Below, piece by piece: positions 3,676 to 54,752 of a stretch of DNA of 64,000 nucleotides. Under the pieces are notes generated by a model. That model saw only the letters and a program-made list of their open reading frames with translations, was not told the DNA's origin and did no database searches. Source of the stretch: Membranipora membranacea (taxonomy: Eukaryota; Bryozoa; Gymnolaemata; Cheilostomatida; Membraniporidae); NCBI GenBank assembly GCA_914767715.1, contig OU612071.1:28271681-28335680 (forward strand), read 5' to 3'. The position numbers and the translations under genes are program-made. Numbering within the stretch: position 1 is the stretch's first letter; each line of letters starts with the position of its first letter.

Positions 3676-3996
3676 CTGCCTGCCTACCAGTTCACCAATT
3701 CAAGAATTGTCATTTTTCGGTGAATGCTATTTTCAAAAGAATTCGCGAATTAGGTCAATATTTTGGACACGTGATCATAACAAACATAGATTTCAAGTAG
3801 ATGACATAGAATTGGCCGGCGTGGGAAGGAGTAGACAACTACCACTAATAAAACATATAATGTATTGAACCAGGCACAGGTGATTTAAATATCAGAGGAG
3901 TTTGCAATTGCACTTGGTATTAAGTTTGAAAGCTAACCTTAGTTCAAAAGGTTCTAAATCTTGATTGAAACAGCCCAGGGACTCATTCAATATGTT

Positions 3997-32966: not shown

Positions 32967-35900
32967 ATGGATGGCACACAGCTTAGTATGAGAAAGCGTA
33001 AGGTACAAGATGTCATCGGAGCTGTAAACATGAAAAAGTGAGTGCCATCCTTTAATTTGCTTGATTTTGATGATATACTATAATGTTAAATTTAGCATAT
33101 ATACTCTACACTTAAGCTCCCATAAAAAAGACTCATTCTTCAACTTTCCACATGAATCGGTGTAAGTTAGTGGACCATTCATTGAGGTATGATTCTTTTA
33201 TCAATGGTACTGTTTTTGGTCTTATTATAATGATATTTGGATCGGTTACGGTGAATGAATATTAACATAGTTCTCTTGCTTGATAATTTATCACATCTTG
33301 TTACAGATATCTTCATCTGATGGGATCATGGTTCAAAGGCAAGGTAGGTAGGCCAGTGTGATGGTATTATAATTATTGCAAATAATATACTTAGGGGTTA
33401 TGTTATGTCAGCCGATGAAAGCTGATGGCAAAAAACTATTGTACTGTTTTTCATGAGAAGTTAGCTTTTGAGAATGATTTTACACTACACGATAGGCCTA
33501 TTACCAGATTGCGAATTCTGTTTCTATCTGTTTATCTATCTGTCAAATTTTTAGTTTTATCAAGCAAAGTTGACAGCCTTAAGTATTTTTGTTTGCAAAA
33601 TACAGTGTGCTCTAAAATTTCAGGACTTCTGCCCTCCCTTTCTTCATAAACAGTTTTATGAATCTGTCTTTTCTCTTCTGTTTCAGTTATCAAAGGATGA
33701 GTTTGATGAACAAGCTCGATTATTTTTCACCGATGACACAGGTAGGATACTGGCGATAAATATTAGTTCAGTTATTTTATTCATAGTGTATATATATTTT
33801 TCCTGTTTGATGACAAGTAGCTCTCAGTTTACAAGCAAGATAGACCCCCAACAGAGTCCGGTAGGGTACAGACAGGAATAGACATTAGCATTACAGAGCA
33901 GGTGCCAATGACTGAACTGCCTCTGCCTGTTTTTATCAAAGTATAATTGGTAATCATAATTTTCCTGTCCAAACCTCTTTTGTCAGCACTGAGCAAAATT
34001 TTCACATTACGCTCCACCCACTATTGTAAAATGCTAGACAGAAGTCAACTTCTCATCTGCACTTAAATTAGTTTGTTTGATTTTATTAGTCGAATTTGCC
34101 TCACAGTCCTAATTCAGCACATATCCTATGACACTGAAAGAGCAAACTGTGGTTTATGATCATCAGATGTTAGTAAATTTTTTTATTTGATGTTAAGACG
34201 GCAATCTTGATGAATTGAGACATTGATTATTTACTTGAGATTTGCCCTTGATAAAGGCTGTACCGTCCGTCATTTATAGGATGAGTGTGAAAATAGTATA
34301 TTCCATCAGATTTTCAATTTTTCACATCATAATATAAACTATGAAGATCTCATTATTATATTCTTCTTCAAAGTCGATGGATAGGTTTGAGCAAAACTCT
34401 TTATTTTATTACTAACTAATTTCATCATTTAACTTTTAGTGAGAACACACAACGAGTTTCTATTAGCCATGTTAAAGAGATGTCAGTCAGTCGCCCACAC
34501 ACTCGGTATGTATACAGTATTGATTGATGAACTGGAATCATTGAGCTCTTTGTTTCGTAAAAATAACACCTGTCTAGCTAGAAATCGTCCTTTATGGCAG
34601 CCCAGCTTAAATTGACATATGTGGGAGTTATGCCCACTCATCAGCTGAGAAGACAACTCACTTTTATGGAACTACCAACCTGTGGAGTGTTTAGTATGCA
34701 ATGATCTGTTCGCTGTATCGGCTAGTTATCCAAATAAAAAGATCAGCTCATTCAGACTGAAGTCACTGTCTCGCTGCTAATAACATCACTAACCCTGACA
34801 TTGTTACATCATCACACCATTGTGCATAACACAACGTGATGTTATTGTTACATATAGGAGTTAGAGATATGAACAGATTACCTTCACTAACACCTCAGCC
34901 CGCTGCCTCACCTTCTACTTCTACTACTGCTGCTGTCTCCATGTCTAAACAGAGTAAACCTTCAGTACAGCGGGGCAGCTCTGGGTCAGCACAACCAGCA
35001 GTGGTTAAGAAGAAACCCTACACTAAGACAAACTTCACGGTAAGTTTGTGGGCTTATGATAAAATAATTCATACTTTTACCATGTTTATCATCTTTTGCG
35101 GTTTTGATTTTACTAACGGTATAATGGTTGAGTACCATGATTTGTGAATTATGTGATTTGAAATGTGATGTCACAAGTGCCCCTTGCCCAGACAAGCAGT
35201 CTGGTATCTGTTTTGACTTTGTTACTCTCAAGTTTCAAGCGGAATGATATGATAAATATTTCAGTGCTTTTAGTCCGAGTAGTCTTTGTATCAAGTGTTG
35301 CGTTGATCAGAGGTCAGCTCTCTATGATAAATGTGTATATCACTAGTAGCCTACTGTAATCGAAGTTACACACTTTGTGCTGTAACAATTGGTTTTTCCT
35401 TTACAGCAAAGATTTCAGCCAGCCAATCAGCTTCGTCAGGTTCAGGCAATAAAATCTCCTCCTCCACCTCAAAACAACGCAAGTAAGTCTCATATCCTGG
35501 TGACGCTATCACATCTTCTCTCGTGCATACACTCACGCTCTCTGCATAGCCTCCTCCATGACATCATATCTCTTTCAAGATATTAAAGTTGTCCACAATA
35601 ATTGGACTTGTTTCACTATCTCAATTTGATGGTGGTGCAGTTTTTTGACCTCGTAGAAACTCACAGCATAATAATAGATGATGATGTCATGAATTACCCT
35701 GGTGATAACTATTGTGTATCTGTTTACATTGACAGATTGATGTTTGTTGTCTTCTCTTGGTTCAAGAGTAACTTCAGATCTTTAATGTATACAAACGCTG
35801 AAAACAATTAAACTTAATGAGGAGCTACCCCAGATGAGTTAAGTAATTGCAAGAGGAAAAGACCACCATTTCATGAAAGCCAAAATAGTTGAAATTTTGG

Positions 35901-38900
35901 CAGTACTTGATATGAACTCTCAACTTAAAGATTTTGGCTGGCCAGCCTAAGCCATCCTCATACCAAGGAGTAACAGGGGAACAAGCTTTATTAAATTCTA
36001 GTCAATACTTACTCCTCAATGGTCTTATCTCATGTCTTGCCTCAACTAGTTTCCTGTGTGATGTTCGACCATCATGGCATATTATCATATGTTATTATTT
36101 GATTATGCTGTAGAGTTTGCGAGTTCAGATCATGGATTATTTTATGCTGTAGAGTTTGCGAGTTCAGATCACGGATTATTTTATGCTGTAGAGTTTGCGA
36201 GTTCAGATCACGGATTATTTTATGCTGTAGAGTTTGCGATTTCAGATCATGGATTATTTTATGCTGTAGAGTTTGCGAGTTCAGTTCATGGATTATTTTA
36301 TGCTGTAGAGTTTGCGAGTTCAGATCACGGATTATTTTATGCTGTAGAGTTTGCGAGTTCAGATCACGGATTATTTTATGCTGTAGAGTTTGCGAGTTCA
36401 GATCATGGATTATTTTATGCTGTAGAGTTTGCGAGTTCAGATCATGGATTATTTTATGCTGTAGAGTTTGCGAGTTCAGATCACGGATTATTTTATGCTG
36501 TAGAGTTTGCGAGTTCAGATCACGGATTATTTTATGCTGTAGAGTTTGCGATTTCAGATCACGGATTATTTTATGCTGTAGAGTTTGCGAGTTCAGATCA
36601 TGGATTATTTTATGCTGTAGAGTTTGCGAGTTCAGATCATGGATTATTTTATGCTGTAGAGTTTGCGAGTTCAGATCACGGATTATTTTATGCTGTAGAG
36701 TTTGCGAGTTCAGATCATGGATTATTTTATGCTGTAGAGTTTGCGAGTTCAGATCACGGATTATTTTATGCTGTAGAGTTTGCGAGTTCAGATCACGGAT
36801 TATTTTATGCTGTAGAGTTTGCGAGTTCAGATCATGGATTTATTATATGCTGTAGAGTTTGCGAGTTCAGATCATGGATTATTTTATGCTGTAGAGTTTG
36901 CGAGTTCAGATCACGGATTATTTTATGCTGTAGAGTTTGCGAGTTCAGATCATGGATTATTTTATGCTGTAGAGTTTGCGAGTTCAGATCACGGATTATT
37001 TTATGCTGTAGAGTTTGCGAGTTCAGATCACGGATTATTTTATGCTGTAGAGTTTGCGAGTTCAGATCATGGATTTATTATATGCTGTAGAGTTTGCGAG
37101 TTCAGATCACGGATTATTTTATGCTGTAGAGTTTGCGAGTTCAGATCACGGATTATTTTATGCTGTAGAGTTTGCGAGTTCAGATCATGGATTATTATAT
37201 GCTGTAGAGTTTGCGAGTTCAGATCATGGATTATTACCAGACGCCGGGATGATAGAAGGGAGATTATTCGTCTCAGCCTGGGAGGCGGGACTCGAGAATG
37301 TACAGAATGATATATATACACTCATCGCACACGCTACTGAGGTATGTATCATACTTACTTTACAGCATCGTTAGTTTGCTTGATATTCACCACCAGGTGA
37401 TTGATGCCGCAGGAGTAGTCGTTTGATTAAAATTTGGGAAGCTTGCACACTGCAGCGCCCAGCACTCTCAGGTGTATTTACTTCATGTAGTGTGGTAACT
37501 GTGACTTTGATTCTGTCTAGTAATCTACATTTGTAACATGCGGGTAAATATATATGGATGTGTTCTACTCATTGAGAATGGGCAGCTTAGCTTCATGTTA
37601 TAAATCCTGCCTCTAACACTGCCCATCATGCCTTTTATATCTCTCTTTTTAATTAATCCAAGTATGGGGAAGATAAATTATCACAAAATTGTAATTATTT
37701 TAAGTGTAAACCGCCTGGAATTAATTCTGGTGATCAAAGTCAAGTGGTCACTGTCAGGGCACTAAACCTGGGAGGATCTGAATCCTGAGTTTTGCTTATA
37801 CCCATACCAAGTCACGTAGTATCATATCATGGAGTAGGAGGTGGCTCAGTGGTTAGAGCGCCGGACTTTCATCATGCAAGTGTTGAAAGTCGTGGGTTCG
37901 AATCCCACTGCAGTCCACTGACTACTGGGAGTTGTTGGACCCCCAGGTGTGCTCCGACCTGCCTACAAACTGAGAGCAAATTGGCGCAGTCATTGCAGCC
38001 TCGCCCTTAAGGCACACTATTTCGCCGCCACGATGTGGTGAGTGACCAACCATTGGGATTTTAACCAACATTTTTTAACCAAAGGCGCAAAATACCCTGT
38101 GTATGAACAGGTTAGGACTTGGGGCTTCTGTAAGCATTCCCAACAAGGTCCAGACGCAGAACCTAAAGTGCAATTTAAGGCTCTCCGGGTTCCATTGGTT
38201 TTTAGGGTGACATTTTCAGTTAAGATTGTCAATAAAAATTAACTGTATATTCCGGATGAATATGAGGGGAAAGCTGAGTAACTGGAGATTAATCTTAGTG
38301 GTTGAGAGCCCTGGTCACTGTACTTTTTGTCCGCTTTCGGCTGTTTTTGTGAATCTACTGATTTCAATCACTATTTATATTTACAGCATATACTCAAAGA
38401 CATAGTAACACATGTGGTCACTAGTCGGAGAGGCTACCGTATATCCCGCACTAATCAAATCAAAAGACACGTGGGTGTGGACGCTCCTGTGTGCTATCTG
38501 GAGGGAATATACAGTAACAGTCAGGGCTCACAACACTCAACACATGATACACAGTGAGTGGTCCTATAATTTACAGGCAGGTGGCTCCTAGGTTTTGTCG
38601 ATGGTATCATCATTTATTTGTGTAAGAATTTTTTTGACAGAGAATCAGCCTTTAACTCAATTTCATGCATGACAACATAACCGCATCACTGCGCCTTGGA
38701 ATTCAACGAAAGCAGAAATCTTTAAATTCAGCATACGACCACGTTTTATTTGCTGAGGAGTTTCACACTCAGCTAATAAATATTTTGTGAAATGATTTAA
38801 TTTGACAGGGAGAACAGTTTACTGAGAGCTCAAAGAGATGAAGCAGACTCTGTGCAGTCATTGGCTAGATCAGGTCATGTGACTCAATCCTCTCAGCCAA

Positions 38901-39429
38901 TCACAGTTCAAGATACCTTTGTGGCATTGCAGGTAGGATAGTTTATTTTTAGCCTGCCCGTTGTGCTTGGCTACCAAAGTTGTTTTGTTTTCTCTATTGG
39001 GAAGGATATAATTTTGTTCACCTATGTGTGTGACTCTCTTGTTTTCATTTCATCAAACAGGAATAAGACGCGACTAGGAATTAGATATCCTATAAATAGT
39101 GAATGGTTGTTAATGTGTAGATATTACTCAGCTGCGGCGACAATTGTTTATCTTCTTACTATGTATTAACCTCTCCGCCCCCCCCCTCTCACACACAGGC
39201 TGATCCAGGAGTTATCTCCTCTCATGTCATGTACACATTAGCTCTGGAGAGACTTTGTACTCGATTACATCATCCTAGTCAGGAGGAGATGTCAGCTAAG
39301 CGCAACGAGTTAGCTGAGGCTCTCACTAACATAGCCAGGCAGAGGCTGCTAGCCGCTGCCCACTCATCATCATCGGCTAGTCAGCATGGAGCTCAGGCTA
39401 CTCTCAGTAGAAGAAGCACTGCCAGCTGA
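32967..39429 (+). CDS. TADA1: TADA1, SAGA complex transcriptional adapter 1
   Basis: Ten coding exons join in phase: 32967-33037, 33307-33343, 33687-33741, 34440-34505, 34858-35039, 35407-35482, 37208-37341, 38387-38553, 38809-38932 and 39199-39429, giving 380 aa (human TADA1 is about 335). The N-terminus has KYLHLMGSWFKGKLSKDEFD, then RTHNEFLLAMLKRCQ, the conserved SAGA-Tad1 motif. A Ser/Thr/Pro-rich linker is followed by RFQPANQLRQ, then MIEGRLFVSAWEAGLENVQ, then HILKDIVTHVVTSRRGYRI (histone-fold-like part) and VISSHVMYTLALERLCTRLHH. TADA1 is a structural subunit of the nuclear SAGA histone acetyltransferase coactivator. The start ATG follows a possible 5'UTR acceptor. The exon 7 acceptor lies in the last unit of a 39-bp minisatellite that repeats the same acceptor 29 times, so the exact exon 7 start is ambiguous. 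Intron 7 holds two SINE sequences. Confidence 0.93.
36104..37226 (+). repeat. 39-bp minisatellite of 29 copies containing the TADA1 exon 7 splice acceptor
   Basis: The unit is 'tatgctgtag|agtttgcgag' followed by 'ttcagatcacggattattt'. It joins a pyrimidine-rich tract, the intron 6 AG, and the first coding bases of exon 7 (FASSDHGLL). Acceptor AGs recur from 36112-36113 to 37206-37207. Twenty-seven periods are 39 bp. Two units, near 36838 and 37073, carry one extra base. Variation is otherwise limited to C/T in 'cacgg/catgg' and rare changes, which indicates recent expansion. Confidence 0.95.
37394..37482 (+). repeat. fragment of the 27.2-kb SINE-like family
   Basis: It shares 'aggtgattgatgccgcagga', 'ttaaaatttgggaagct' and 'cagcgcccagcactctcagg' with the reverse complement of 27205-27330. 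It lies in TADA1 intron 7. Confidence 0.65.
37834..38045 (+). mobile_element. tRNA-derived SINE
   Basis: Box A 'tggctcagtggttagagcg' and a perfect box B 'gggttcgaatccc' are followed by the family body 'gctccgacctgcctacaaac' and 'gcagcctcgcccttaaggc'. It is the better-preserved of two copies (the other is at 13457-13656, minus) and sits in TADA1 intron 7. Confidence 0.9.
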
Positions 39430-39827
39430 TCACCTATTTTCAAGTTGTAGTAATCAAAAGAACTGGAACTGTAGAGCAATCCCACACTAGTGTGATCCCT
39501 AAACATGGAGATCAATTAATGAATTGATGTGATATATCTTTTTCTCAAGTTAAATACACACAGAGACAGCAACGGCTGTTGATATGTAAATGTATATACA
39601 TCAGACTTGTGTGCCGATGAATCAAACAGACACACCTCTAGATAAGGCATTAAGGAAATATTTCTATACCTTACCTATCTCTGCTTACTAGAATTTTGAA
39701 CAGATGGCCAGTATTTAGTTTTCATGCCACTATTTATAAGTTTTGTGCAATTATGGACTGAAGATTTGAAGTAACACAACATACCTTTGCTAAAATAAAA
39801 TTTTTCCTGATAAAAGACATGACAATG

Positions 39828-40045
39828 ATATACATGACAATGATATACATGACAATGATATACATGACAATGATATACCTGACAATGATATACATGACAA
39901 TGATATACATGACAATGATATACATGACAATGATATACATGACAATGATATACATGACAATGATATACATGACAATGATATACATGACAATGATATACCT
40001 GACAATGATATACATGACAATGATATACATGACAATGATATACAA
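39828..40045. repeat. 15-bp minisatellite, about 14-15 copies
   Basis: The unit is 'atgacaatgatatac', nearly perfect, with 'cctgacaatg' variants twice. It is open in several frames only because 15 is a multiple of three. It lies about 400 bp downstream of the TADA1 stop. Confidence 0.93.
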
Positions 40046-40049
40046 TGAT

Positions 40050-41500
40050 ATACCTCAGTCTCAGTCTCAGTTTATGGTTACCATAGGGTTATAGTAGTTA
40101 GCCATGAACCCCAAAATGTGTTCTAATTGCATCATTTCGTTCCTTAGGGCGACTTTGGAACAGTCTATGTAAAAATATTTCCCATATGCGCTATGTTAAG
40201 TGTCTTGATTTTATCTCTTGTTAATAATGGGGAGTTCTTTTGCCTTATTTCTCTCATTCTGTTTTAAAATAGTTTTCTGGAAATTGAGAGAATTGTGGGA
40301 TTTTTTAATTTCGCTTCGATTGTTTCAATCCGTAGATTAAGAAATAAATGCTCTCTACTGGCTTGCAGGTGATGGACACATGGGTAACGGAGCTCAGTAG
40401 TCTGTAGACTGTAATGTAATCATTAAAACCCAGGACATCTAACACCTGTATGTCAAAGGTTAGGCGCCCTATACCACCTTCTTATAACTTTTCTAACTAG
40501 GCGCAATCGCAACCACATTTAATTGTAAAGCACTGGATTATCCTACATCGATCAGAAGGAAAGCAACTCCCAACTTCCATAATTTTGCCGTGGCCATCAG
40601 CATCATGTGAGTTTAATACCTGAATATTATTAACAATTTGTCTTTTTCCACTTTATCAAACAAAATCTGACACTTTGAAACAGAATCGAGTGTAATAGTG
40701 ATAGTTATAAAATACAGTATAACAATCCACAGTCTAAGCAATATTTGTTTTCAAAATGTAACGGTGAAAAATGGGTGTACCATAAAAATTCCTTGTGATT
40801 TTCTGTTTGATGGCAAAATTGCTCAACTACCAAGATGAGTTGTGGCTGTGTTTCTCAATGCTCAACATACTGATCTTGGTCATATTCTAGATCACAAGCT
40901 ATTATTTTCCGATGGTGCAATTGGGTTTTCCATTAAGCTGCATGATGGGAATCCCAGCTCCCAATAGTTCAATGATTTGTTGCATTCTCATTGGTCCTCC
41001 AAGTAATGATTATTAAGCGGGGAAATGGGATTTCCAATTTCCCATTTTTTTTGGAGAAATAGCATGACTCATACAATTACCCTCCCTGCTGCCTTCCAAA
41101 TAGCCAGGTGAGGCTTCTCTAGGTTTAACCTTACCAACAGCAGGCCCTTAGTTAACTTATACCACGCTGAGTTACCAGCTTAGATTCCTCGTAGATAGAA
41201 GCTGATTTCTTATAGAAAAGTTGTTCTGTAGTGCATACAGGTGTATGTATAATAAGTGATGGAGATTCATGAATTCGCTCTATGAGTGCGGATATGAAAG
41301 TCTTGAAATAAATATATCATTTCATTATATAATTATTTATTTTTATGATATTCTTGAACTGACAGTTAAAGATACTTCATGTATTTGAAGATTAAAGTGA
41401 GACGAAAATTTCCCATCCATATGTTTAATTGGACTATGAAGTCCAGAGCAGTGGTCATGGAGATCGGATAGTCTGATTGTCTCCTACGAGCCGAGCTAAG
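40050..41500. other. no gene recognised
   Basis: AT-rich intergenic sequence downstream of TADA1. No exon, RNA or clear repeat seen. Confidence 0.4.
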
Positions 41501-41507
41501 CCAAAAA

Positions 41508-41711
41508 TCAACATATACAACAATTTGAACAACAATCTAAGATCTTGGCACAACACCACCACAGCAAACGGCACACCACTATTGCGAATAATGTCCAACA
41601 GATGAATCCGATATTATCTTTTACTGTGCCGGGGTCTGCAGAAGAATAAATCACTAAGCCGCAATCGAGGAGAAAGCTGAGAACAACTAGTAGTTTCCAT
41701 GAACTGATCAT
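41508..41711 (-). CDS. possible 67-aa Cys-rich membrane peptide
   Basis: Single open frame starting MISSWKLLVVLSFLLDCGLV, which looks like a signal peptide or first helix. Next come SSADPGTVKDN, a second hydrophobic stretch (IGFICWTLFAIVVCRLLWW), and a tail CCAKILDCCSNCCIC ending at TGA. The tail is dense in cysteines. No homologue recognised, no splice evidence, so it may be a chance ORF. Confidence 0.35.
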   Translation of the reverse strand: MISSWKLLVVLSFLLDCGLVIYSSADPGTVKDNIGFICWTLFAIVVCRLLWWCCAKILDCCSNCCIC

Positions 41712-42181
41712 CCTGATGATAAAATGTGTGTCTTCCTTCCCTCCCCTCTCTGTATGGAGACAACATCCACCTAAAATATATATGAGACGGCATCATTCTA
41801 GGCTGTTGGACCTTTTCGACCTAGGACAGCGCCCAATGCCCAATGCCCGAAACCAAACCTTCTTTTCTCTGAATAATTTCAGTCGGAATCATTTGTTGAT
41901 TTATAGAACAGTGTTTTTTTTGTAATTGTTAGTAGCAATTTCCTATTTCCTATTCTTATCGAATCACCATTAGGATAGTAAGACATGATATGAAAGGTGT
42001 AAGTTAGAAGAGAAGAAAATGATTCTCTGATGTTGGTTTTACTCACGTTCAATATCTCCTGTCATATTTGTTGTTGAATTTGCTGTTCAATTAAAAAATC
42101 CCGAATTCTCCGACAGAGACTTTGTGACTACTGATTTTGTTCAGCTTAATCACATACTGCTGCTGCTTACCTATCACAAAG

Positions 42182-42293
42182 AGGCTATTGATTTCAGGCT
42201 ATTGATTGCAGGCTATTGATTGTAGGCTATTGATTGTAGGCTATTGATTGCAGGCTATTGATTGTAGGCTATTGATTGCAGGCTATTGATAGC
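42182..42293. repeat. 14-bp tandem repeat, about 8 copies
   Basis: The unit is 'aggctattgattgc', with c/t variation at the last base. Confidence 0.93.
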
Positions 42294-42513
42294 ATTCTCT
42301 TCACTGTACTGTGACTATCGCTATGATTGAGTTGAGTTTTATATTGATTTTTCATTACTATAGATAAATAATCTCAGCAAAAAATAAAACAAGCACATTT
42401 TTGTGTCATGAATTAACAATGTACAAATATTTCCAAAATCAGACTTTTTAGTAGCTTAATAACAAATTAGCTGATGATATAGTGTCAAGTAGAACTATTT
42501 GTATAATATTCCG

Positions 42514-42704
42514 ATTACATCGCTACATTAGATCACTACATTAGATCGCTACATTACATCGCTACATTACATCGCTACATTAGATCGCTACATTAGATCG
42601 CTACATTACATCGCTACATTACATCGCTACATTAGATCGCTACATTAGATCGCTACATTACATCGCTACATTAGATCGCTACATTATATTGCTACATTAG
42701 ATGC
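42514..42704. repeat. 13-bp tandem repeat, about 14 copies
   Basis: The unit is 'cgctacattagat', with a variant 'cgctacattacat'. The two variants alternate in a higher-order pattern. Confidence 0.93.
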
Positions 42705-43439
42705 TGCAAAACCCAAATCTGATTCCATGAAACCTGACTCAATGACTCGATCAAACTATCCAGAAAGGATCAATCACTGACTGCTTTGAGTACTACAAGC
42801 AAGGAGTAACAGGGGCTATTACTCCTTGCTACAAGTACCGTAAAAATTACCAAAATAATAAGTTTGCTCCCCTTGTAAAGCTCCCTCCTTCTCGGTGAGA
42901 ACATGTAAGAGAGAGCTGCACGCTTGGGAACAAGTTTTTTTCTCTGTGGTGTTATGAAGCTTATGACACAAATTGGCGACCACTTTAATTACTCAATGGG
43001 TGTTATCTTCCTTTCATCAAGGGAAGGATAACTCCTTATTAATCATTGCATTACTTGCAATCGGTCCCAGACTCCTGTTGCAATAGATCATATTATTTGT
43101 GATTACCTGTGTAAACAAGTCATTCGCACGCAGATTTCCAAATTAACTTCCATATTAAGCATCCGATTCAGAAACTAGATATGTTATGTATCAACTTTAT
43201 TACTGATTAAAACTCCGAAGAGCACATAAGATCATGTTTACTGTATGGGATATGCACAAGGTTGATAATGCAAGGTATACAATACTTGAATATCTGATAC
43301 ATTGATACATGACATAAGTAAAAATGTGTACTCTAAATAATGGTGAAAAAATATTGAATTACATAATAAATCATAAAAATCTCTGAAATAGTGACATAGA
43401 TCTCAGTGCTGTTCGTGATTTCGATTTGATCTGCCTGTA
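42705..43439. other. no gene recognised
   Basis: It contains the short hairpin 'caaggagtaa...ttactccttg' at about 42800-42829, a motif pair also seen at about 17713-17741. Otherwise nothing supported. Confidence 0.4.
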
Positions 43440-43960
43440 ACTGTGTTGTTACGTTTTACCAGTGGCCGTGTGGGTATGTAGCGGGTCATCGGATTGAACT
43501 TTGTATGTATAACGTGTGCTGAGCTAGACTCTGCTAACTGCTTGGCATGAATCACTGTTGGCTTGGTTTGGAAGCATTATTCGTAGACAGAGTCTCTGGT
43601 ATTTCTCCAGCTTCTCACGGTCTTGATTGGAGGGCTGAGGGAACCAGCGGGGTGCGGCATACGTCAGAAGTGGGAAGACACTGGCTTTGCAAAGGCTTCC
43701 ACCGTTGACCCCGATTTTCTAAGATAAATGATGGTTGACATCTGTTGATTAGAGCATCGACATGTGTGGAAAAACAGGGATTACGGTCAAAGGTTACCCC
43801 TAGCAGTTTCACTGAGCCATTGTTTGATTCTGCTGACTGCTTGTGGCAATCCTTTTCTGCGTCAAGAAAAAGATAAAGGTTGACTTTGAGGAATTGAGCA
43901 GCATTTTGATTGTATCACACCAACTGAGGGCGTAGTTGGCTGCTTGTTGTGATTGATCAT
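43440..43960 (-). pseudogene. LINE reverse transcriptase C-terminal fragment
   Basis: On the minus strand: ANYALSWCDTIKMLLNSSKS, then KLLGVTFDRNPCFSTHVDAL, then INRC, and after a frameshift WFPQPSNQDREKLEKYQRLC and LRIMLP. This is the RT thumb and tail of a Jockey/CR1-type LINE. It is frameshifted and truncated. Confidence 0.8.
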
Positions 43961-44236
43961 CTGATGGCAGTGATGGTAGCGTGGTGTGAGGTAAAGTTGG
44001 ATATTCTTGTTTGTGCTTAGCGCAGAATATAATGTGGAATCATCATCATATAGGAATGAACTTAAACTGGATATATGTCCTCAACAGGAAACCAACGCTA
44101 TTCTCTGAAATTTTTACTCCATAAATAAATATTGTAAAGATTGTCTACTCAGATATACTAAGAAGGTGAATGGAACTTCCCAAAACTACCCAAAACAGCA
44201 CCAATATGTTAGTATTTACCTTATTGTACTCATATT

Positions 44237-44419
44237 TCATTCAGTGATAACGTGATATAGTGATAGATAGATGATGTAGTATTGCATCTTATATTGGTCG
44301 ACTAACTGATGTAAGTCTGGTACGGTGATGTTCATACGGAATCGTTTGGGAACATATTTTAGCCGAATAATATACAAACGATCGCTCCTATCATTGATCT
44401 TCAATTTCTTTGATGTCAT
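44237..44419 (-). CDS. possible exon, unrecognised
   Basis: Open frame with KINDRSDRLYIIRLKYVPKR, then FRMNITVPDLHQLVDQYKMQ. Composition is coding-like. It lies about 90 bp downstream of the ORF at 44508-45000 on the same strand, so the two could belong together, but no intron joining them is evident. Confidence 0.22.
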   Translation of the reverse strand: MTSKKLKINDRSDRLYIIRLKYVPKRFRMNITVPDLHQLVDQYKMQYYIIYLSLYHVITE

Positions 44420-44507
44420 AATCAGTTTATTTATATGTCGACCTGGTGTCTGATGCTCCTGTAGTTAGTTTGAGCCCACAAACTCTAATCTCCCATCCAA
44501 TGGCTTA

Positions 44508-45000
44508 TCAAGGGCATTGAAGAATGAGACGGTCCTCTCTTCTCCATTGTGAATGTTTATCTTCTAAATTCCTAATTTTGATGTTCCCATATCTATGATT
44601 GTTTTCTATGCAGCACCAGCGCAATATTGAACGCAGGAATCTACACCTGCAGGAATGATTAACTAAGTGTTTGTACAAAGAATGATTAACTAAGTGTTTG
44701 TACAGAGTGACCGTAGATACTATAAAGCCTATAAGCACTGTGGTGATACAGTAATAGTCTGTTTGGTGTGAGTAGTCGTCTCTCCCTAACAGACAGTAGA
44801 GTGAGAGAAAGGACTGTAGGTAAAGTAAGGCTTTGAGTCGTAAAACAGTCGTCGTCAACTTTTCATATTGTCTGTTGAATCCTGTGTCTTTTGTAAGATT
44901 GCCACCTACAACATTAGAAACAGCCTCGTATGAACATACCTTCCTTCTGATCAAGTCACAATACAACCAAAAGTAAAAATACCCCATATTCAAATACCTA
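44508..45000 (-). CDS. possible multi-pass membrane protein exon, unrecognised
   Basis: After an acceptor (cactgtag) a 163-codon frame stays open to TGA at 44508. It has hydrophobic stretches NMGYFYFWLYCDL, ALLYLQSFLSLYCLLG and YYCITTVLIGFIVSTVTLY, then a basic Cys-rich segment CRCRFLRSILRWCC. The peptide LYKHLVNHS occurs twice in a row, from a 27-bp in-frame duplication. The length and in-frame duplication favour coding, but I recognise no family and found no partner exons. Confidence 0.4.
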
Positions 45001-46309
45001 CAGTGATGACTTCTGATCCATCGATGACCTTAACTTTGAGCAATCTTGACTGCATCCAGCGCTTGGTGAGATACTAGCTTAAAACTTTATTAAGAGTAAT
45101 AGTGCACAATACATAAAAGTACCATTGCACAGGGTCGGACAAAGTAGAATTTTCTCTTAATGAAGCAACATGCATGGTCCCAAAATTCAAGGAAATGGAG
45201 ATCTGTAGTTAAACTGACTCACCTTCAATATCTGTCATAATGCTAGTGCTGTGCGATTAAACAAGAGCTAATATTGGTAAGAAATTACAGATCGAGTTAG
45301 GTGACTGGATCCGAGTAGCCCAACTTTGAATTAGTCAGCAGCAGTTTCGTTAGCACATGATGTATTTAATCGTTCACCTGTTAACCATCCCTCATTTTTA
45401 AAAGCTTTTATTAATCTTCAGTCATATGAATAGGCTGCTAAAAGGTTGCTTGGAATGTGCTAAAATGTACTGAGCAATGCATAAGAATAATGTAAGGACT
45501 TCCATCCCTTTTGTCACATATTAGTATTGTTTTATTCATTATGATCAGAGTCAATAACTGGATTGAACTTCACTGCTTATGTGAAATTTTGATTTAACTC
45601 ATTTAGTTATGTTTTCTTTCAACAACTACACTGATGACTTCTGACATGATACATCCATATGTGATTCTCTGATTGGTGCAGGATGTATCTAGTCATGTAG
45701 GCGTGATGTCACGCTAAAAGCTTCATAGCATTAACTGTAAGATAAGCCGACAACCCTCACATTAACTGTTTTGTATTAAACTTGAAAAAAACACTCATAT
45801 TGCTTCTAAACAACTCATACATTTGTGCATCATGGGATTGGCAAACAAAGCAGTTCAATAAAAGATTAATGTTAGTGACTGCCCGAATAGAAATTCAGGC
45901 TACCATATAATTGTTGATAAGCAGGAGTTATCTACCTTCAACCAGAGAGGAGATAACTAAAAACAATTTATAAACTCTCTTTTTATGTTTTAAATCTTTT
46001 GTTTTTAATTGAATTAAAAAGATCTTTTTAGAGGCAATGGATCGATCTCCTTAATTTTGAACATTTTTCTACATGGACTATAACTTTCTCTGCTTACCAG
46101 GATAAAAACCGCAAGCCATGACTGCGCGAATCACCTGTTATATTTTTAGTAGTTGCGTTGAATTTGACTCATTGACATGATTTTACACAAGTAAGAGGGC
46201 TGACTGGACAGTCTCCTTATTTATTGCCCTTGTTTCCTTTTCTCAATATAGGTTAAGAGCATAGATATAAAAACAGTACTGTTTTTATATTAATGGTTAA
46301 GAGGTACAA
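45001..46309. other. no gene recognised
   Basis: AT-rich. A perfect 26-base palindrome (arms atataaaaacagt) lies at 46265-46290, next to the LINE 3' end. Nothing coding supported. Confidence 0.4.
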
Positions 46310-48625
46310 TTATTGATTGGTTGATTGATTTATTAGCTTTCACAAACATTAAGCATTGCAAAAAAGGACGCATATATACTTTGTCATCAACTGAGCTTGC
46401 TACTAGTGTATGGAACATTGGTTATTATAAAAGAATCTCATTAAGCATGACGCAAATTTGCCTCAAAAAACACTTTTTGCCCCATGAGCTGCAATATATA
46501 ACGTGTCTAGGACAACCAGAAGGGCAACGTTCTAGAAAATCGTGTATAAAGTATAAAGATCTTCATCAGAAGAAACAGCACATAGTAATTGATTTAGTTC
46601 TTTGTTTACCATTAGCATTGAGGTCGCCTACGTCAAGCCCCAAGTTCTTGGCATCATTAAAAAACTTTTCTTAGTAATTTTTTGTCTTTAGCCATATGAG
46701 TTTGCCAATTAACAAATTTGCCTAGACCACCTATATCACATGGTCAGTGCGAATAAGTAACATTTAGTGATTACAATTTTTAACGAGCTGTGATGATGTC
46801 AGCACACAGCTTTACGTTACTCTCTAGGCATCCACAAACACTGTGTCTTCATTTAATCTGTCAATAACAATAATTCAGCTATGTGGATATTGATTTATGT
46901 TCTCCTGTTTAATTAGATGTTATGACATTTGGTACAAGGTGAGTGAATTATGGGTATGTCAACAAAGCAGGCACAGCATGTGTTCTCAATGCCTTTTGCT
47001 GTGGTTAAAAAAATCAGGTCTCTTATCACATGTCAAATCCCGATTGGCGAATACAGGGTGATGGGGCATGTTATGTGCCAAGTTGCTCTCCGTTTGAAAG
47101 CAAGCATGCATGGAGAGCAAAGTTGATTAATACAATTTTAAGTTTTATTCACAGACCCGATGTTTGGTTTTTTGTTTTTGTTTGGTTTATTATGACAATC
47201 CATGTATCAACAGGCAATAAGATAGGATTGGTACATGAAAATGAACATTTTAGATTCTTTTGTGAGCTGACATATATTATGGAAAAAAGCTCTTCAAATG
47301 CTTTTGTGTCCTGCACTTTGGTGGGTAATAGATGGTATATAGGCGAGAGGATACCTTTGCACAATTAAAAACAACAGAACTAAAAAGAGGACGGTCTTCA
47401 TCGGATGCAATTTTGTTAAAACAGTTTTAGACATCTCAGAAATAAAATCACAGAGAGTAGGCAGCTCTAAAAATTCAAGTCTTTCAGCATAATCAACGTG
47501 GGGCTCGATTATTTTAGTGGCTGAATCCTGTACATGTTCCAATTTGAGCTTCGATGTGATTGATAAAAATTGGAAACATACAGTGGATGCATAGGATAAA
47601 ACAGAACGTATATTTGTATATTTGTATGTCCTCAAACCAAAGTGGTCCATTCCAATCTTTCGTAATTGGCGCGGTAAAAACAACTTCGAGTTGTATTTCT
47701 TGACTAAATGTTCTTAATGATCTAAAAAGGTATCAACTAAAATTCCTAAAAAATTAACAGATTCTACAGGATTTATTTAGCTTTCATCACAAACCAAGGG
47801 CTCGCTGTTCTTGTTGCAATAGTTAAGATAAAAGTTCACAATAGCAGTCTTGTTTGTGTAGAGGAGCATATTGTTCTTAGCTGACCATACCTGAGTTTGT
47901 TGTATAGGAGGCGAGATATTATTACTGCTATTTTTGGGAACAGTCACATAGAAAGATGAATGATGCGCATATTTAACAGAGCAGCAGAATTCAGTTTAAC
48001 ACATTGTTGTTGCTCTTGCAGAAAACTAGAGAGTATTTTTATTATCTTAGGGTTGAAACCAGATTGTCTCATTTTACTTAGCACTATGGGTGGCTGCAAG
48101 CGGTCAAGCGCTTTTGAGAAGTTGAGCGATGCAAGCTGGCTGCACATAGTCGAATCCCTTGCCATCCAGGTCTGAGGTAATGTCATCTACCAGTTGCAGG
48201 AGCGTATCTGCTTTCCCTATTTTAGGCTGGTAGGCAAATTGATCTGATTTCATTTTGTCAATAATAATTTGCTCTGCCAGCTTCCCAAGGTGGAAAGTAA
48301 AGATATAGGGCGGTAATCATTAAACTGTGATGGTTTGTTGGATTTTGGTAGTGGTCGTACTTCGCACAAATCATATTTTGCTTCCTTGCTCACCCAGGAT
48401 GGAAAGTTTTGGCTATTGCATGCTCTTCTATCACCTATTTTGTTTATCAGGTGTTTAATTTCACAGAAGCTTATGTGTTGTAGAGGTGTTCCGCTATCCT
48501 CGGGTATAGGTGTTTCTTCAGCATCAGCAAAACGGTCACCCCCAACTTTCTGATAGTCAGTGTTGAGGTTTTGACAGAATTCATATCCTCGCATGCACTT
48601 GCCATCTATACTCATAGTGGTGTTC
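46310..48625 (-). pseudogene. decayed LINE (Jockey-superfamily, L2/CR1-like)
   Basis: On the minus strand in order: an RT N-terminal part with FCEIKHLINKIGDRRACNSQ, then KSNKPSQFNDYRPISLL. Next is the palm LNFSKALDRLQPPIVLSKMR and SGFNPKIIKILSSFLQEQQQ, then a tail KLKLEHVQDSATKIIEPHVD, LEFLELPTLCDFISEMSK. About 1 kb of 3'UTR ends in 'aataaatcaatcaaccaatc' near 46312-46331. Frames are broken repeatedly and the YADD-containing part is not readable. No endonuclease, so it is 5'-truncated at the minisatellite. Confidence 0.83.
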
Positions 48626-48950
48626 ACTGATTGTCGGTGACTGTCGGTGATTGTCGGTGATTGTCGGTGATTGTCAGTGATTGTCAGTGATTGTCGGTGA
48701 TTGTCGGTGATTGTCGGTGATTGTCGGTGATTGTCGGTGATTGTCGGTGATTGTCACTGATTGTCGGTGATTGTCGGTGATTGTCGGTGATTGTCGGTGA
48801 TTGTCGGTGATTGTCGGTGATTGTCGGTGATTGTCAGTGATTGTCGGTGATTGTCGGTGATTGTCGGTGATTGTCACTGATTGTCGGTGATTGTCGGTGA
48901 TTGTCGTGATTGTCGGTGATTGTCGGTGATTGTCGGTGATTACTGGTGAT
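48626..48950. repeat. 10-bp minisatellite, about 32 copies
   Basis: The unit is 'ttgtcggtga', with 'ttgtcagtga' and 'ttgtcactga' variants. It abuts the 5' break of the decayed LINE and lies about 70 bp from the outer end of the inverted duplication. Confidence 0.95.
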
Positions 48951-49024
48951 TGATTTAACTAATTTCTGCCAGTCTCTACTGTTGTGGTTTTTATTCAACT
49001 GCCTGCCCTGGAGGTTAGTTCGGA

Positions 49025-49199
49025 AAGGTATAACGCATTCCTCGATCACTACGAGGAGATAATCAGTAGTATCCCTACAGATATCGCAATGTCGGCCAAC
49101 GAGACCATCAGCGACAAATGCAATCTAATTGGCAGGCTGTCTGCAGAAGACAATGCTACCTGTCAAGTAGCTTCACACTACATACCAGGTAGCTTGTAA
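49025..49199 (+). CDS. conserved ORF at the outer end of the left arm, unrecognised
   Basis: The frame ends RYNAFLDHYEEIISSIPTDI, then AMSANETISDKCNLIGRLSA, then EDNATCQVASHYIPGSL and TAA. The mirror copy at 60625-60807 (-) keeps the same frame and stop. Within the shared part I count two silent changes and one replacement (Ala to Val). The segment is GC-richer than its surroundings. No family recognised. The true start or upstream exons are unknown because similarity ends at RYNAF. Confidence 0.45.
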
Positions 49200-50179
49200 A
49201 ACAACCAGGGGCTTAGTCTTAACTGTAGTATGGGCTGCGATAAGATAACAAGCCAAGATAACAGCCAAGACTGACATACGGATAGTATCATGCAAAGCTC
49301 TCTGCCGACCAATCTTCGAGTACTCCGCAATAATCTAGTCTCCGTATGAAGAAAGATATGGAGCGTTTCTTATTTTGTCACCGTATTCGTAAGGCGCTAA
49401 ATAATGGCTAGACATAGAAAATAAATATCATTCATCTGACATATTCACTAAACCATAGTACCAGGCGGCTCAACAATATTCCTCATAATATATATTTATC
49501 CTAAAATAGTAAATATAAAGGGCAGTCATCCCGAGGTCTGCTGCTGAATAATCAAATGCCGCTCTGATTCTCCAGCCCAATCCCCCGCAATCCCCCCCCC
49601 CCAATCCCCTGCCATCACTCTATTACACTGTTTAAAAGCTGTAGATATGATGAGGTACTGTTTTCGCCGGTTGATATTATATGCTTTTTTGCCACAACAT
49701 TTATTTTGGTGAGAATTGAGATAGAAGGATACAATGGAAATATGATGCTGGTATGATATGATTGATAACGCATATGATCACATCCTTGGCTATCAAGCAA
49801 GAGGTCCCAGTTAAGATTCCTGTCTCGAGGGATTTACCCTGGCTTCTTTCTACCCACATTCCTCATTACTCAGAAAGATTTCACACCAACAACTCCCTAA
49901 AATCACTTATATCTCAAACCCAAACAACTCTCATAATCACAACACTGACAACGTTCTATTAGTGATAGTCAAAATTGTCCAGGGGTTTGGAGGGTAAATT
50001 CTTATAGCGCTACCCTCCCCTAAATAAGACAAGGCAAGACAACAATGCTGGAGGACCCTCAGGTTACTGTGTGTTGTACTTGTGTGAGTTACTATTGTTT
50101 GAAAATGTTAAATATCTTTCTATCCTTAGGATCGAAATAATCCCAATATCATTTTGTAAATTGGTTAGCTCTTTGTAAA

Positions 50180-50760
50180 TATGTCAGATAGCTATGTAAT
50201 TATGTCAGCCTGTCATAACTTTGCCAAAATATGTATGCAGGTCGGATTCTATTCTAAAGCCTACAATGTAAATTTCAACGCCAGTAGAGATGAGTTTACA
50301 TTCCAATTTCAGAGTCTAATTAATGACTTTCAGCTTCAAAAGTCCTGACAGGTGCTGAGGTGCCAAGGTTCTTCAAATGTGCTGACAGCTTCAAAGTATG
50401 TGATTTCTGGGTTTATTTTGGATATCTGATCAAATTGTGGTTCAGCAACGGTTAGAAGTAACCAATGGTTCCAAATCTAACAAACATTACTGTATATGAC
50501 AAGAAAAAGCGTTGAAATAAATTATATAACAGCAATTCCATTGTATTGATATTCAGAGGCATTCCAATGAGCTGGGTATGGTCACGTTGTGCAGTCAAGT
50601 AATACAGTTGAAGCTTCAATCTGTTTGCAGGCTGACCCTATCTGAGCTTTAAATACAGAGCTGTATCAGTGGCTACACGTCAAAAATATTTGAAATCATA
50701 ACAATGAATAATTGTGTTACAGTTCTGGTCGTGTTCTTAGCTCTGGTGTAATCGCGGCAG
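50180..50760 (+). pseudogene. orphan copy of lysozyme promoter and exon 1 (left arm)
   Basis: It matches the upstream region and first exon of the lysozyme gene at 57.4 kb. After a TATA-like 'tttaaata', the ATG at about 50705 opens MNNCVTVLVVFLALV and is then stopped by TAA where the intact copy continues with SSGSC. No exon 2 or 3 follows on this strand, so it is a dead fragment. Confidence 0.8.
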
Positions 50761-51274
50761 CTGTTTGATGTAAAAAATCAAGCTACTAGTGCCCATGTAA
50801 AATAATAGGAGCTGCCATTAACAGGATGCATCTGGCTCAGGCGCCTCACAACCATTTATTCATATCAAGCCAGGATTGGCAGCTCAAAGTATGTTGATAC
50901 AATCAATCGTAGTAGCAATCCTTGGCATGGATTTTGAGAGCTAGAGGAAGAAATTCTTATAGTAACAGACAGGAATTGATAAGCCAGACGATTAGTAAAT
51001 ACACTAAAAATGACTCGATTTCAGAGACTTAAATTACTACGCCAAATCTAGTGCCGAAACATTGCAGGCAAGAAATCATGAATTTTTGGATTTTCTTCTG
51101 TATTTATTTCAATTCGAGTAAAGATGTTGATTCAAACTTGGGAACACACAGAAATGATGTTTGTGGGTAATTCCAATGCCATTGATTACAATGAAAGTAG
51201 TGAAAGTGAAGTGAAAGTGAAAGCAGATAGACTACCCATATAAGGCTGATCATACTAATATAAATAAGAGCTGA

Positions 51275-53505
51275 CACTGCTATCGCAAAACTCTGATATC
51301 AAACTCTGAAACGCTATATCAACTCAGATATCCACTTTTGTTAGCTGTTTCAGAGTCTGAGATTTTCCTTCAGGGTTTATTGCATATGCTTTCAGAGTCT
51401 GTGTGTCCTCAAACTCTGATAATACTTTGTTTTTACACCCTGAAATGCCACCGCAACCCCCACATTGATGAAATTTTTGTTATCTTTTATGATAAATAGT
51501 GCCTGCTCACAAAAGATTATCGGTCAAAAAAACGATTTATAATCTTTGGTCAAACTGTGAAAACAGAACTCATTAAATCTCAGTCAGCATCAATTACATA
51601 ACTTATTTCCTTTGACAAATATGAATGTTTGTTTAATTTAATTTGTTAGAAATAAAATCTACCTGTGCTAGCAGACTGTCTCTTTTCAATCAATTTACTG
51701 TGAAAAGGCCTCATTTACAGTGCACATGTTCTGCAATCAGCTTCCATTTAGTATTTTTATCATGTCGCCAGTTGTGTGATCAACTGCTCGCTGGCTAATT
51801 TCTAGCAGTCATCTGACAATCTTGGTCTTGTACCATTGCCTGAACCATTGTTCAATACCAACCTATGAGTTGATGGTATAATTTTTCAAAATTTCACACT
51901 GATGACATTTTTGGTTTCAGGTGTTCGATCAGATTTGCAATTATTTTTCTGATTAACTAGGTTACCACACCATAAATTGTGGAAATTGAGTGAAAAAAGG
52001 TAAACTCAAACACCACCCAAGCTAATATCACGACCCCACAAGCCTGTTGTTGCTCATTTTGTAGACTTAACAAGCAATGTTGCATCTGTAATTATTACAC
52101 AATGTAATGGTTTATCTTTGCAGGTGAGAACCCATGCAGAGCTGACAGTGGTCAACAACACAAAGTCGCAGTTTATGAATCTCACTACCGTAACGATATA
52201 TGACACATATGCAGAGGCGATATTGCAGCAATTTATGCTGCATTTCATATCAAATGCGATGGCCTGAAAACCTTCTTTCTAGCCAACATTAAGTCTGTTA
52301 TAGCCTACACCTGCACTGCATGTATAATCTGCTATGAGGAACCGATAAACAAGACTAGAGAGGATCCAGCGCTCTGCTACTAGGATTATGCTGCCATTCT
52401 CTGACAACTATGAGCATAGGCTGGACAATCTAGCACTGCCACCCATCACAACATTCCTGCACACCTCTTGCAGTGAACAGTTCGCTAAAATAGCTGATGA
52501 CGAACACTACCCCCTGAACTCTCGTATTAAAATGTATGTATTAAAATATATACAGCATTTAATTTTATATGCAATTTTTCAACTAATGCGGCTCAGACTC
52601 CTTTTAATTATTTTCCAATTATGTGCCAAACATTCGATGCTATCAACCTACCACAGGATGGATATTAGAATTAGACAATAAAGAGACTTCAAGCTTCAAA
52701 TCAAGAATACTCGAAGGTCAGACCAAATTTCGATGGTTTGTTATAGATTTTTTGTGGCCTCCGCAATGTTATAGAGTACGTAGGCAGAAACGACTCTACT
52801 AAAACTTTTCTTTTAATGTTTGGTATGTTTCAAAATATTCCTCCTGTATTGGCACAAAACAACAAGAAATCACTTAAATTTAGCTAGTTTTAAAAAAAAA
52901 ATTATTCTTCAAGCTTAGCCTTGGAGCTACCGCATACTTCTATTATAGTAGAGTTCATACTAATAATTGTGAGCATTCTAGTTGACATGACAGTAAATAT
53001 CAAGCATAGTATTGCCTGACTTGTGAGCCTGTTTCTTACAACAACTTTGTGGGCATTTGCATATGCTGGTCAACCCGTAATTTTTTTATGTGCTTCGTAT
53101 GTGCCAAAGTTCAATAGATTCAAAGGGCCGGTCAAATTCTCGCTATCAACAGTATTTGAACCCATGCTAATTTCTAAGACTAAGCTCCTAGTTTTATGTT
53201 ACTCAGCCTCCCTAAAGCCATTGTTAAACTACTCATGATCTCAGGCTATCATGAATATGATCCATATTGGTATAGTATTGGGTATTACATAATAAATGCA
53301 CTCGCCAGCTGTGTAAATAGACTCGTATTACATAACGGCTTGTAATAACAAAAACGATGAATGCTATCAGGGTATGAAAAACTCTGATATGCAGTTATAT
53401 CAGAGTCATATGATATCAGAGCTTGCTAACATAGACCCTGATATTTAGATTCATAGCATTTCAGAGTTTATTCTGCAATGATATCAGAGTTTTTCCATAA
53501 CAGTG
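51275..53505. mobile_element. 2.2-kb TIR element inserted in the left arm
   Basis: The left end is CACTGCTATCGCAAAACTCT. The complement of the right end is CACTGTTATGGAAAAACTCT. Both continue with GATATCA, and further 'ctctgaaa.gctat' blocks follow inside. The equivalent position in the right arm (about 58472) is uninterrupted, so this is an insertion. No unambiguous target duplication is visible and the superfamily is undetermined. A LINE fragment is nested inside. Confidence 0.8.
52345..52545 (+). pseudogene. LINE tail fragment nested in the 2.2-kb element
   Basis: The frame reads TRLERIQRSATRIMLPFSDN, then YEHRLDNLALPPITTFLHTS, then IADDEHYPLNSRIK. This matches the C-terminal tail pattern of L2/CR1-type LINEs ('LERVQ.RATR.I.P', 'ERL..L.LP.L..F'). 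Upstream RT is absent. Confidence 0.78.
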
Positions 53506-53763
53506 TAGAGAAACTCTCTGAAAGTTTTTCTTTATGGTTTAATTCTCCTATTGTCCCTAACAGTTGGATGACTAACTAATAAGTTCAATTTTCAGTAATT
53601 TTGACCCATTCTCTAACAGGCTAAAGCCATTGCAGTCATTATAGTAAAAATCTTAGACAGGATACTATATAGATCATTGATATTGAGGCCAATTATTGAA
53701 TACCTTACATCTACTTTGAGTTATAGTAGAATGGTATTTTTCTTTTTTTATTATACAGTTTAA

Positions 53764-54293
53764 AGACTCAGGAAGGACCACAGCAATACATAGTCTGGCA
53801 GCTAGTTCTGCAGTAACTACGCAATATTTTCACATTTAGAAAATTCAGAGCACTTGTGGGTAAAAATGATGTCTAGTGATAGGAATTATTCTCCCTTCTC
53901 ATATATTAGCTATGAGGTATTTATGCGCCCTAGTGCTGTGCCAACCTAATAAGCTAACACTCCAAAATACATTCCGTTGCCATTCTTTCCCACATAAGTT
54001 CAAAATAAATATAGTTCCATTGTCAGGAGACATTCTACAACAGTAGATAACTTCATTTAATATTTCTTACATTTGTCTCAAGTAGATAGAAGTATTAGCT
54101 CATTATGTTGGCACAGCTCTAGGGCTCATAAATACCTCATAGATGAGAAGGGAGGAAAATTCCTAACAAATAACACACACAATACATAATTTTTACCAAG
54201 ATGTGCTCTGAACTTTCTAAATTAGAAAATATTGCATAATTACTGCACAACTAGCTGCCAAACTATATTATTGCTGTGGTCCTTTCGAAGTCT
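53764..54293. mobile_element. 530-bp foldback MITE with TTAA target site (piggyBac-type)
   Basis: Inverted arms of about 200 bp ('aggaccacagcaata', 'ttcagagcac', 'cccttctcat...atgaggtatttatg') surround a loop of about 140 bp. It is flanked by TTAA at 53760-53763 and 54294-54297. The right arm of the large duplication has the empty site, with one 'tttaat' at about 58175. TTAA duplication is characteristic of piggyBac-type elements. No ORF. Confidence 0.87.
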
Positions 54294-54752
54294 TTAATGA
54301 TGTGTTGTTAATTGTTAAAATCCTGACCCTAAGTGAAACTGTAGATAGCATCAGGTACTATTCTTGAAATAGCGAGATACTGTGGAGATATGATTATGGG
54401 AGTCCCTCAGGTAACTGTGTGTTGTACTCGTGTGAGTAACTATTGTTAGCAAATGTTAAATATCTTTACACTGAGAACATGAAAATCTCACTTTGCAGAG
54501 TTGAATTGCATATTTATTGCAGAAACAAACAGTTATGAGAAATAGTTAAAGATAAGAATAATCATTGGGCAACAGATTCAACTTTAGGAGACAAGAAAAA
54601 GCATCCATAGATTATAATCAAAGTACACGATCAATGGTGATTGAGTATTAAGGGTTAGGGTTTCTTATGACATAACAGAAGTCAGTATCTGAATAAAACT
54701 GTGAGGTTGTTTATTAACTTCCGAATCAGGCAGCAAGTGGTCAACCCCAGAC

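Follow-up and report, generated by a model that had tools for sequence, protein, structure and literature searches.

A mirage-type minisatellite with 29 copies of a 3' splice junction in a TADA1 gene of the bryozoan Membranipora membranacea

The window analyzed here is the whole stretch of 64,000 nucleotides at positions 28,271,681-28,335,680 of a 28,508,536-base contig (OU612071.1) of M. membranacea, and some 173 kb separate its right edge from the end of the chromosome. All positions below are those of the window. The forward strand carries a gene that could be modeled with ten coding exons, GT/AG introns and an open frame. Exon 7 of the model was started at the last acceptor of the tandem array described below, and the 5' end of the gene is provisional. 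The parts of the model are as follows.

32967..39429, forward strand: TADA1 coding region, ten-exon model with GT/AG introns, 380 codons plus stop, frame open.
32967-33037, 33307-33343, 33687-33741, 34440-34505, 34858-35039, forward strand: coding exons 1-5 (gene model).
35407-35482, 37208-37341, 38387-38553, 38809-38932, 39199-39429, forward strand: coding exons 6-10 (gene model).
35407..35482, forward strand: coding exon 6, ending in phase 1 (GCA A/gtaagt, the slash marking the boundary).
35483..37207, forward strand: intron 6 with the last acceptor assumed, 1725 bp, the longest of the model's nine introns.
37208..37341, forward strand: coding exon 7 from acceptor 29, the best-matching start against human TADA1.

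The translated model matched the Pfam family SAGA-Tad1 (PF12767) with 73.4 bits (E 3.2e-20, cut-off 31) and human TADA1 (7ktr_J) with 144 bits (E 6.1e-41, phmmer), and the phmmer matches at E values of up to 0.1 were to TADA1 entries only. On these matches the array-bearing gene is TADA1, as an earlier note on this DNA had named it. A homologous-protein search, in which 7995 candidates were scored, yielded none that reached an E value of 0.001. Intron 7 contains a stretch at 37840-37915 of the forward strand (GGTGGCTCAGTGGTTAGAGC ... GGTTCGAATCCC) that looks tRNA-like by eye and is perhaps the head of a SINE; Rfam gave no matches in the window and ARAGORN (bacterial code) no tRNA genes, this stretch included in both cases. 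Downstream of the stop codon, a 15-bp minisatellite of 15.2 copies (39817-40044) starts approximately 20 bases past an AATAAA.

The array covers the end of intron 6 and the start of exon 7. Its features, and the stretches that it offers for splicing, are listed here.

36103..37235, forward strand: mirage-type minisatellite, 28 units and the beginning of a 29th, unit 39 bp and twice 40 bp.
36611..36874, forward strand: block copy, units 14-19 recurring 235 bases downstream as units 20-25, with identity over 264 bases.
36816..36855, forward strand: unit 19, 40 bp, +1 frameshift.
37051..37090, forward strand: unit 25, an exact copy of unit 19 (40 bp, +1 frameshift).
36114..37090, forward strand: stretch of acceptors 1-25, where splicing would lead to a premature stop.
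37091..37207, forward strand: units 26-28, with in-frame acceptors that would add 39, 26 or 13 residues.

Tandem Repeats Finder (TRF) reported positions 36103-37235 with a period of 39, 29.0 copies and 97% matches. The repeated junction TGTAG/AGTTTGCGA is present in 29 copies, which place candidate exon starts from 36114 to 37208; the motif TGTAGAGTTTGCGA occurs in 29 exact copies within the array, and the 20-mer TGTAGAGTTTGCGAGTTCAG gave 29 matches (27 exact, two with one mismatch), whereas 100 shuffles averaged 0.00. TGTAG/AG is found in 29 of 29 copies, so that the acceptor AG is kept throughout, and the tandem repetition of the intron-exon boundary in 29 copies that the earlier note had described is confirmed. 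Its constant period of 39 bp, divisible by three, is not: the spacing is 39 bp in 26 of the 28 steps and 40 bp in the other two (units 19 and 25), whereby the frame breaks twice, a fact masked by the 0% indels in the TRF output. The note had also extended the feature to 37341, where exon 7 ends, whereas the array stops near 37235.

The 28 units comprise 14 of a CAC type, eight of a CAT type, two with the extra base and four other types with one unit each. Unit 28 and both 40-bp units have a second difference in common, and unit 29 continues into CCAGACGCC, unlike the earlier units. Using two units as queries against the animal's own genome, 14 matches were obtained among the best candidates scored, all of them inside the array. 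Exact unit patterns had no occurrence in collections of viral and genome contigs without animals, a result that is uninformative on relatives. No inverted repeats of at least 14 bp were found in 35400-37500, and a structured RNA was rejected, the segment 36950-37341 folding worse than most of its shuffles (z +1.69). Altogether, a 39-bp unit in many alike copies spans a boundary of an otherwise intact gene model, as expected of a minisatellite of this kind.

Comparison of the units with the unrepeated flanks indicates how the array was built. On the intron side, 11 nt are common to the unrepeated flank and 25 of the 28 units, and 10 nt to the flank and the other three (unit 28 and the pair of 40 bp). 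Agreement with the exon flank extends over up to 28 or 29 nt. Because of this asymmetry (10-11 nt versus 28-29 nt), each unit is best described as a short intron end followed by a longer exon start. The sequence upstream of acceptors 2-29, including a branch-point-like UCAY, is thus exon-derived; UCAY lies at -21 of acceptors 2 and 29, the two that were inspected, and the full yUnAy is absent at the usual distances before acceptor 29. The claim that the unit holds the polypyrimidine stretch and the AG of intron 6 is confirmed for the AG but needs limiting, since no more than 10-11 nt of that intron lie within the unit. The array presumably originated by tandem duplication of a segment made up of the terminal 10-11 nt of intron 6 and the initial 28-29 nt of exon 7, and slippage or unequal exchange may have raised the number of 3' splice junctions to 29. 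When the units were shuffled 20000 times, 126 of the resulting orders contained an adjacent repeated block equal in length to that of units 14-19 and 20-25. The six-unit block duplication is recent and doubled the frame-breaking unit; it is also an indirect sign that copy number may be unstable between haplotypes or somatically.

Exon 6 ends at GCA A/gtaagt and TGTAG/AG TTT restores the frame, in agreement with the phase argued in the earlier note; its placing of the exon 7 start inside the array likewise holds in the gene model, where the last acceptor gives the best match to human TADA1. The length of exon 7 modulo 3 is 1 for acceptors 1-19, 0 for acceptors 20-25 and 2 for acceptors 26-29, and the next exon requires 2. 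Only acceptors 26-29 are in frame because two units are 40 bp long. Starting at acceptors 26, 27, 28 and 29, exon 7 measures 251, 212, 173 and 134 nt and the full proteins 419, 406 (by arithmetic), 393 and 380 residues. For acceptors 1, 19, 20 and 25 the premature stops lie 545 or 325 nt ahead of the last junction. The proposal that choice of an earlier acceptor would lengthen the protein by n repeats of 13 residues is accordingly right for acceptors 26-28 (39, 26 and 13 residues) and wrong for acceptors 1-25, which lead to premature stops. Among the variants of the units are a silent C/T position (CAC/CAT), the one variant that is common, S to I (two units), D to V (one unit), F to L (one unit) and the +1 frameshift (two units), and on this record the 13-residue peptide shows no sign of preservation among units. 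Nor would a unit that breaks the frame be likely to have spread had transcripts running through it been required.

In the interval 36080-37300, 13 of 121 AGs leave the frame open (four TGTAG, four TTCAG, one CGAG and four farther along exon 7), which makes other starts of exon 7 possible as far as the reading frame is concerned. Human TADA1 was matched with 144 bits when exon 7 started at acceptor 29, with 139 bits at +15, with 129.1 bits when one extra unit was included and with 126 bits at +33; the corresponding Pfam values were 73.4, 73.5, 73.2 and 62.1 bits, so that Pfam sets apart only the +33 start among the four compared. The in-frame starts at +15 (TTCAG; acceptor score -5.35) and at +33 (ACCAG, beyond the array; acceptor score -11.11) were rejected on these acceptor scores and on their poorer matches to human TADA1.

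Acceptor strength was scored with a matrix built from the gene's eight other acceptors, a small basis that makes it a poor matrix; left out one at a time, these eight scored from 1.09 to 8.45. In the array, 25 acceptors scored 1.51 or 1.98, acceptor 1 scored -0.15, acceptors 20 and 26 scored -1.07 and acceptor 29 scored -1.69, the weakest of the 29 by the eight-site matrix and at quantile 0.58 among the window's 3779 AGs. Upstream of acceptors 20, 26 and 29 an A interrupts the T-rich stretch, and acceptor 1 is preceded by non-repeated intron. In view of these flanks and scores, the 29 acceptors cannot be called equivalent, as had been suggested. Each junction contains an adjoining TAGAG, in which an alternative AG follows 2 nt on; its use would break the frame. 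No consensus-type donor (GT followed by A or G, positions 3-4) for the exon 6-7 junction was present in the listed unit sequences.

Repeats that multiply splice signals have precedents. Turri, Cuin and Porter reportedly described in 1995 a human minisatellite that supplies an interferon-induced transcript with several splice donor sites; the gene is said to be 6-16 (IFI6). That minisatellite resembles the TADA1 array in having splice signals in the units of a transcribed gene, but offers donor sites, whereas the TADA1 units carry a 3' splice site and no 5' splice sites. NAGNAG and other close tandem acceptors place several acceptors in a row before one exon. The AGs of a NAGNAG lie three nucleotides apart; in contrast, those of the array are spaced by 39 or 40 nt and each copy has its own upstream context. 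The statement in the earlier note that few such cases are known was too strong in view of the human minisatellite, and equally of the mirages of amphioxus. These are minisatellites across intron-exon boundaries, described for Adh3, the globins BflGb6 and BflGb9, troponin C (TnC) and PGBD5, and those of Adh3, the globins and TnC reportedly leave splicing undisturbed (PMC3087553, PMC3902484). BflGb6 resembles the TADA1 array in that the 3' end of an intron and the 5' part of the next exon are repeated, AG signals are kept in many copies of the mirages, and the units of Adh3 range from 10 to 72 bp with 39 bp among them, the unit length in TADA1. The two haplotypes of BflGb6 have six and three copies versus 29 in the TADA1 array, which further differs from the amphioxus mirages by its phylum (Bryozoa), its host gene for a SAGA subunit and its internal frameshifts, and is known from the DNA of one haplotype. 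In the open-access literature searched, mirages were described for lancelets only, and searches made there without the gene name brought up no TADA1 gene with an array of this kind. The TADA1 array is a known kind of repeat in a new lineage and gene.

Our preferred interpretation, with a probability of roughly 75%, is that the array is a mirage minisatellite in a chromosome end rich in minisatellites, probably neutral, recently duplicating, and spliced mainly at the last one to four acceptors. Most likely, splicing of exon 6 would mainly use acceptor 29 or another of acceptors 26-29, since of the 29 only these four give a full protein. Use of the last acceptors is also to be expected because both flanking introns are long (intron 7 measures 1045 bp, and intron 6 already 631 bp up to the first acceptor), which favors recognition across the short exon 7; by rules published for another animal, this exon may be recognized from its own donor. 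With the spacing in the array exceeding 12-20 nt, the choice of acceptor would fall in the first splicing step, according to the source of these rules (PMC9225289). The same source states that the splice sites closest across the exon are favored where introns are long; it also states that upstream 3' splice sites are preferred overall, which counts against use of the last acceptor, and that under exon definition this upstream preference among competing sites is reduced, not plainly reversed (PMC9225289). The weakness of acceptor 29 in the eight-site matrix likewise counts against it. The upstream copies would act as weak decoys at most, with products that carry premature stops, and the array would probably be neutral or slightly harmful rather than a maker of repeat-containing TADA1.

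It is unlikely that TADA1 varies in length by use of acceptors 26-29 in turn, which would give zero to three extra copies of the 13-residue peptide. All four acceptors keep the frame (exon 7 of 251, 212, 173 and 134 nt), and acceptors 27 and 28 score within 1.51-1.98, above acceptor 29 in the small matrix; against this, the peptide is not conserved across units and the match to human TADA1 drops by 15 bits with one inserted unit. A dosage role, in which the out-of-frame acceptors 1-25 would compete with acceptors 26-29 and the copy number would set the amount of productive TADA1 mRNA, the remaining transcripts being lost to nonsense-mediated decay or held up while decoy sites are occupied, appears rather improbable. 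It would draw on the premature stops from 25 of the 29 acceptors, on the scores of 1.51-1.98 for 25 of the 29 acceptors versus -1.69 for the last (eight-site matrix), and on a report that splicing is inhibited when two alternative 3' splice sites are occupied concurrently (PMC5389562). The amphioxus mirages, reported as leaving splicing undisturbed (PMC3087553, PMC3902484), stand against it. It is just as doubtful that the array is an inherited splicing rheostat for this core SAGA subunit, in which some 25 decoy acceptors would fix the proportion of productive TADA1 mRNA and six-unit jumps would shift the setting, such that colonies or lineages differ in their TADA1 dose. An assembly or polishing artefact, with a wrong copy number or two spurious extra bases, is very improbable: a length of 1.1 kb is normally spanned by HiFi reads, both 40-bp units have one and the same sequence with a second difference that recurs in unit 28, and the unit was absent elsewhere in the assembly among the candidates scored. 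The genome note reports HiFi data at 66-fold, again unfavorable to an artefact, and one polishing round with short-read clouds, which can introduce errors in repeats and would favor one (PMC10290214).

If real in RNA, the mirage minisatellite in TADA1 would offer a natural experiment on spliceosomal choice between 29 near-identical 3' splice sites of one intron, a choice usually studied with two sites in made constructs, and it would extend mirage minisatellites beyond amphioxus. The frame-breaking unit means that existing RNA-seq of M. membranacea could reveal which copy is used; PolyA RNA-Seq of the species is listed under ERR6464929 (PMC10290214).

By chance, 33-99 boundary arrays are expected genome-wide if 50,000-150,000 acceptors are assumed, so that no special cause is required for a mirage, although the TADA1 array is a long one. 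Arrays of at least five copies numbered three in 15 interior 10-kb samples, five in three 10-kb samples situated 200 kb from the left ends of chromosomes (counts of 3, 2 and 0) and six in the 64-kb window, approximately 173 kb from an end. The one-sided binomial P for enrichment near ends was 0.0046 when the window was excluded and 0.0028 when it was included, values to be read with the window having been chosen for its array, the sample places being round rather than random numbers, and the end rate coming from three samples only, one of them without any array. Minisatellites crowd near the chromosome ends in the window (36103-55811) and in the samples L027 (7217-7891) and L028 (3087-3385).

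The window further contains a 436-bp tandem repeat of 4.2 copies (3996-5846). On the forward strand, 61733-63186 holds two overlapping open reading frames with endonuclease-reverse transcriptase (PF14529) and RVT_1 (PF00078) domains, a broken LINE-type retroelement, and on the reverse strand, 10226-10711 holds one with a reverse-transcriptase RNase H-like domain (PF17917), the remains of a retroelement. Inspection of contigs C14-C16 by eye for mitochondrial genes yielded none. Two unplaced small contigs, C14 (sample L024) and C16 (sample L026), have a higher GC content (0.42 and 0.40) and possibly do not belong to the host animal; L024 shows by eye a kinase-like open frame.
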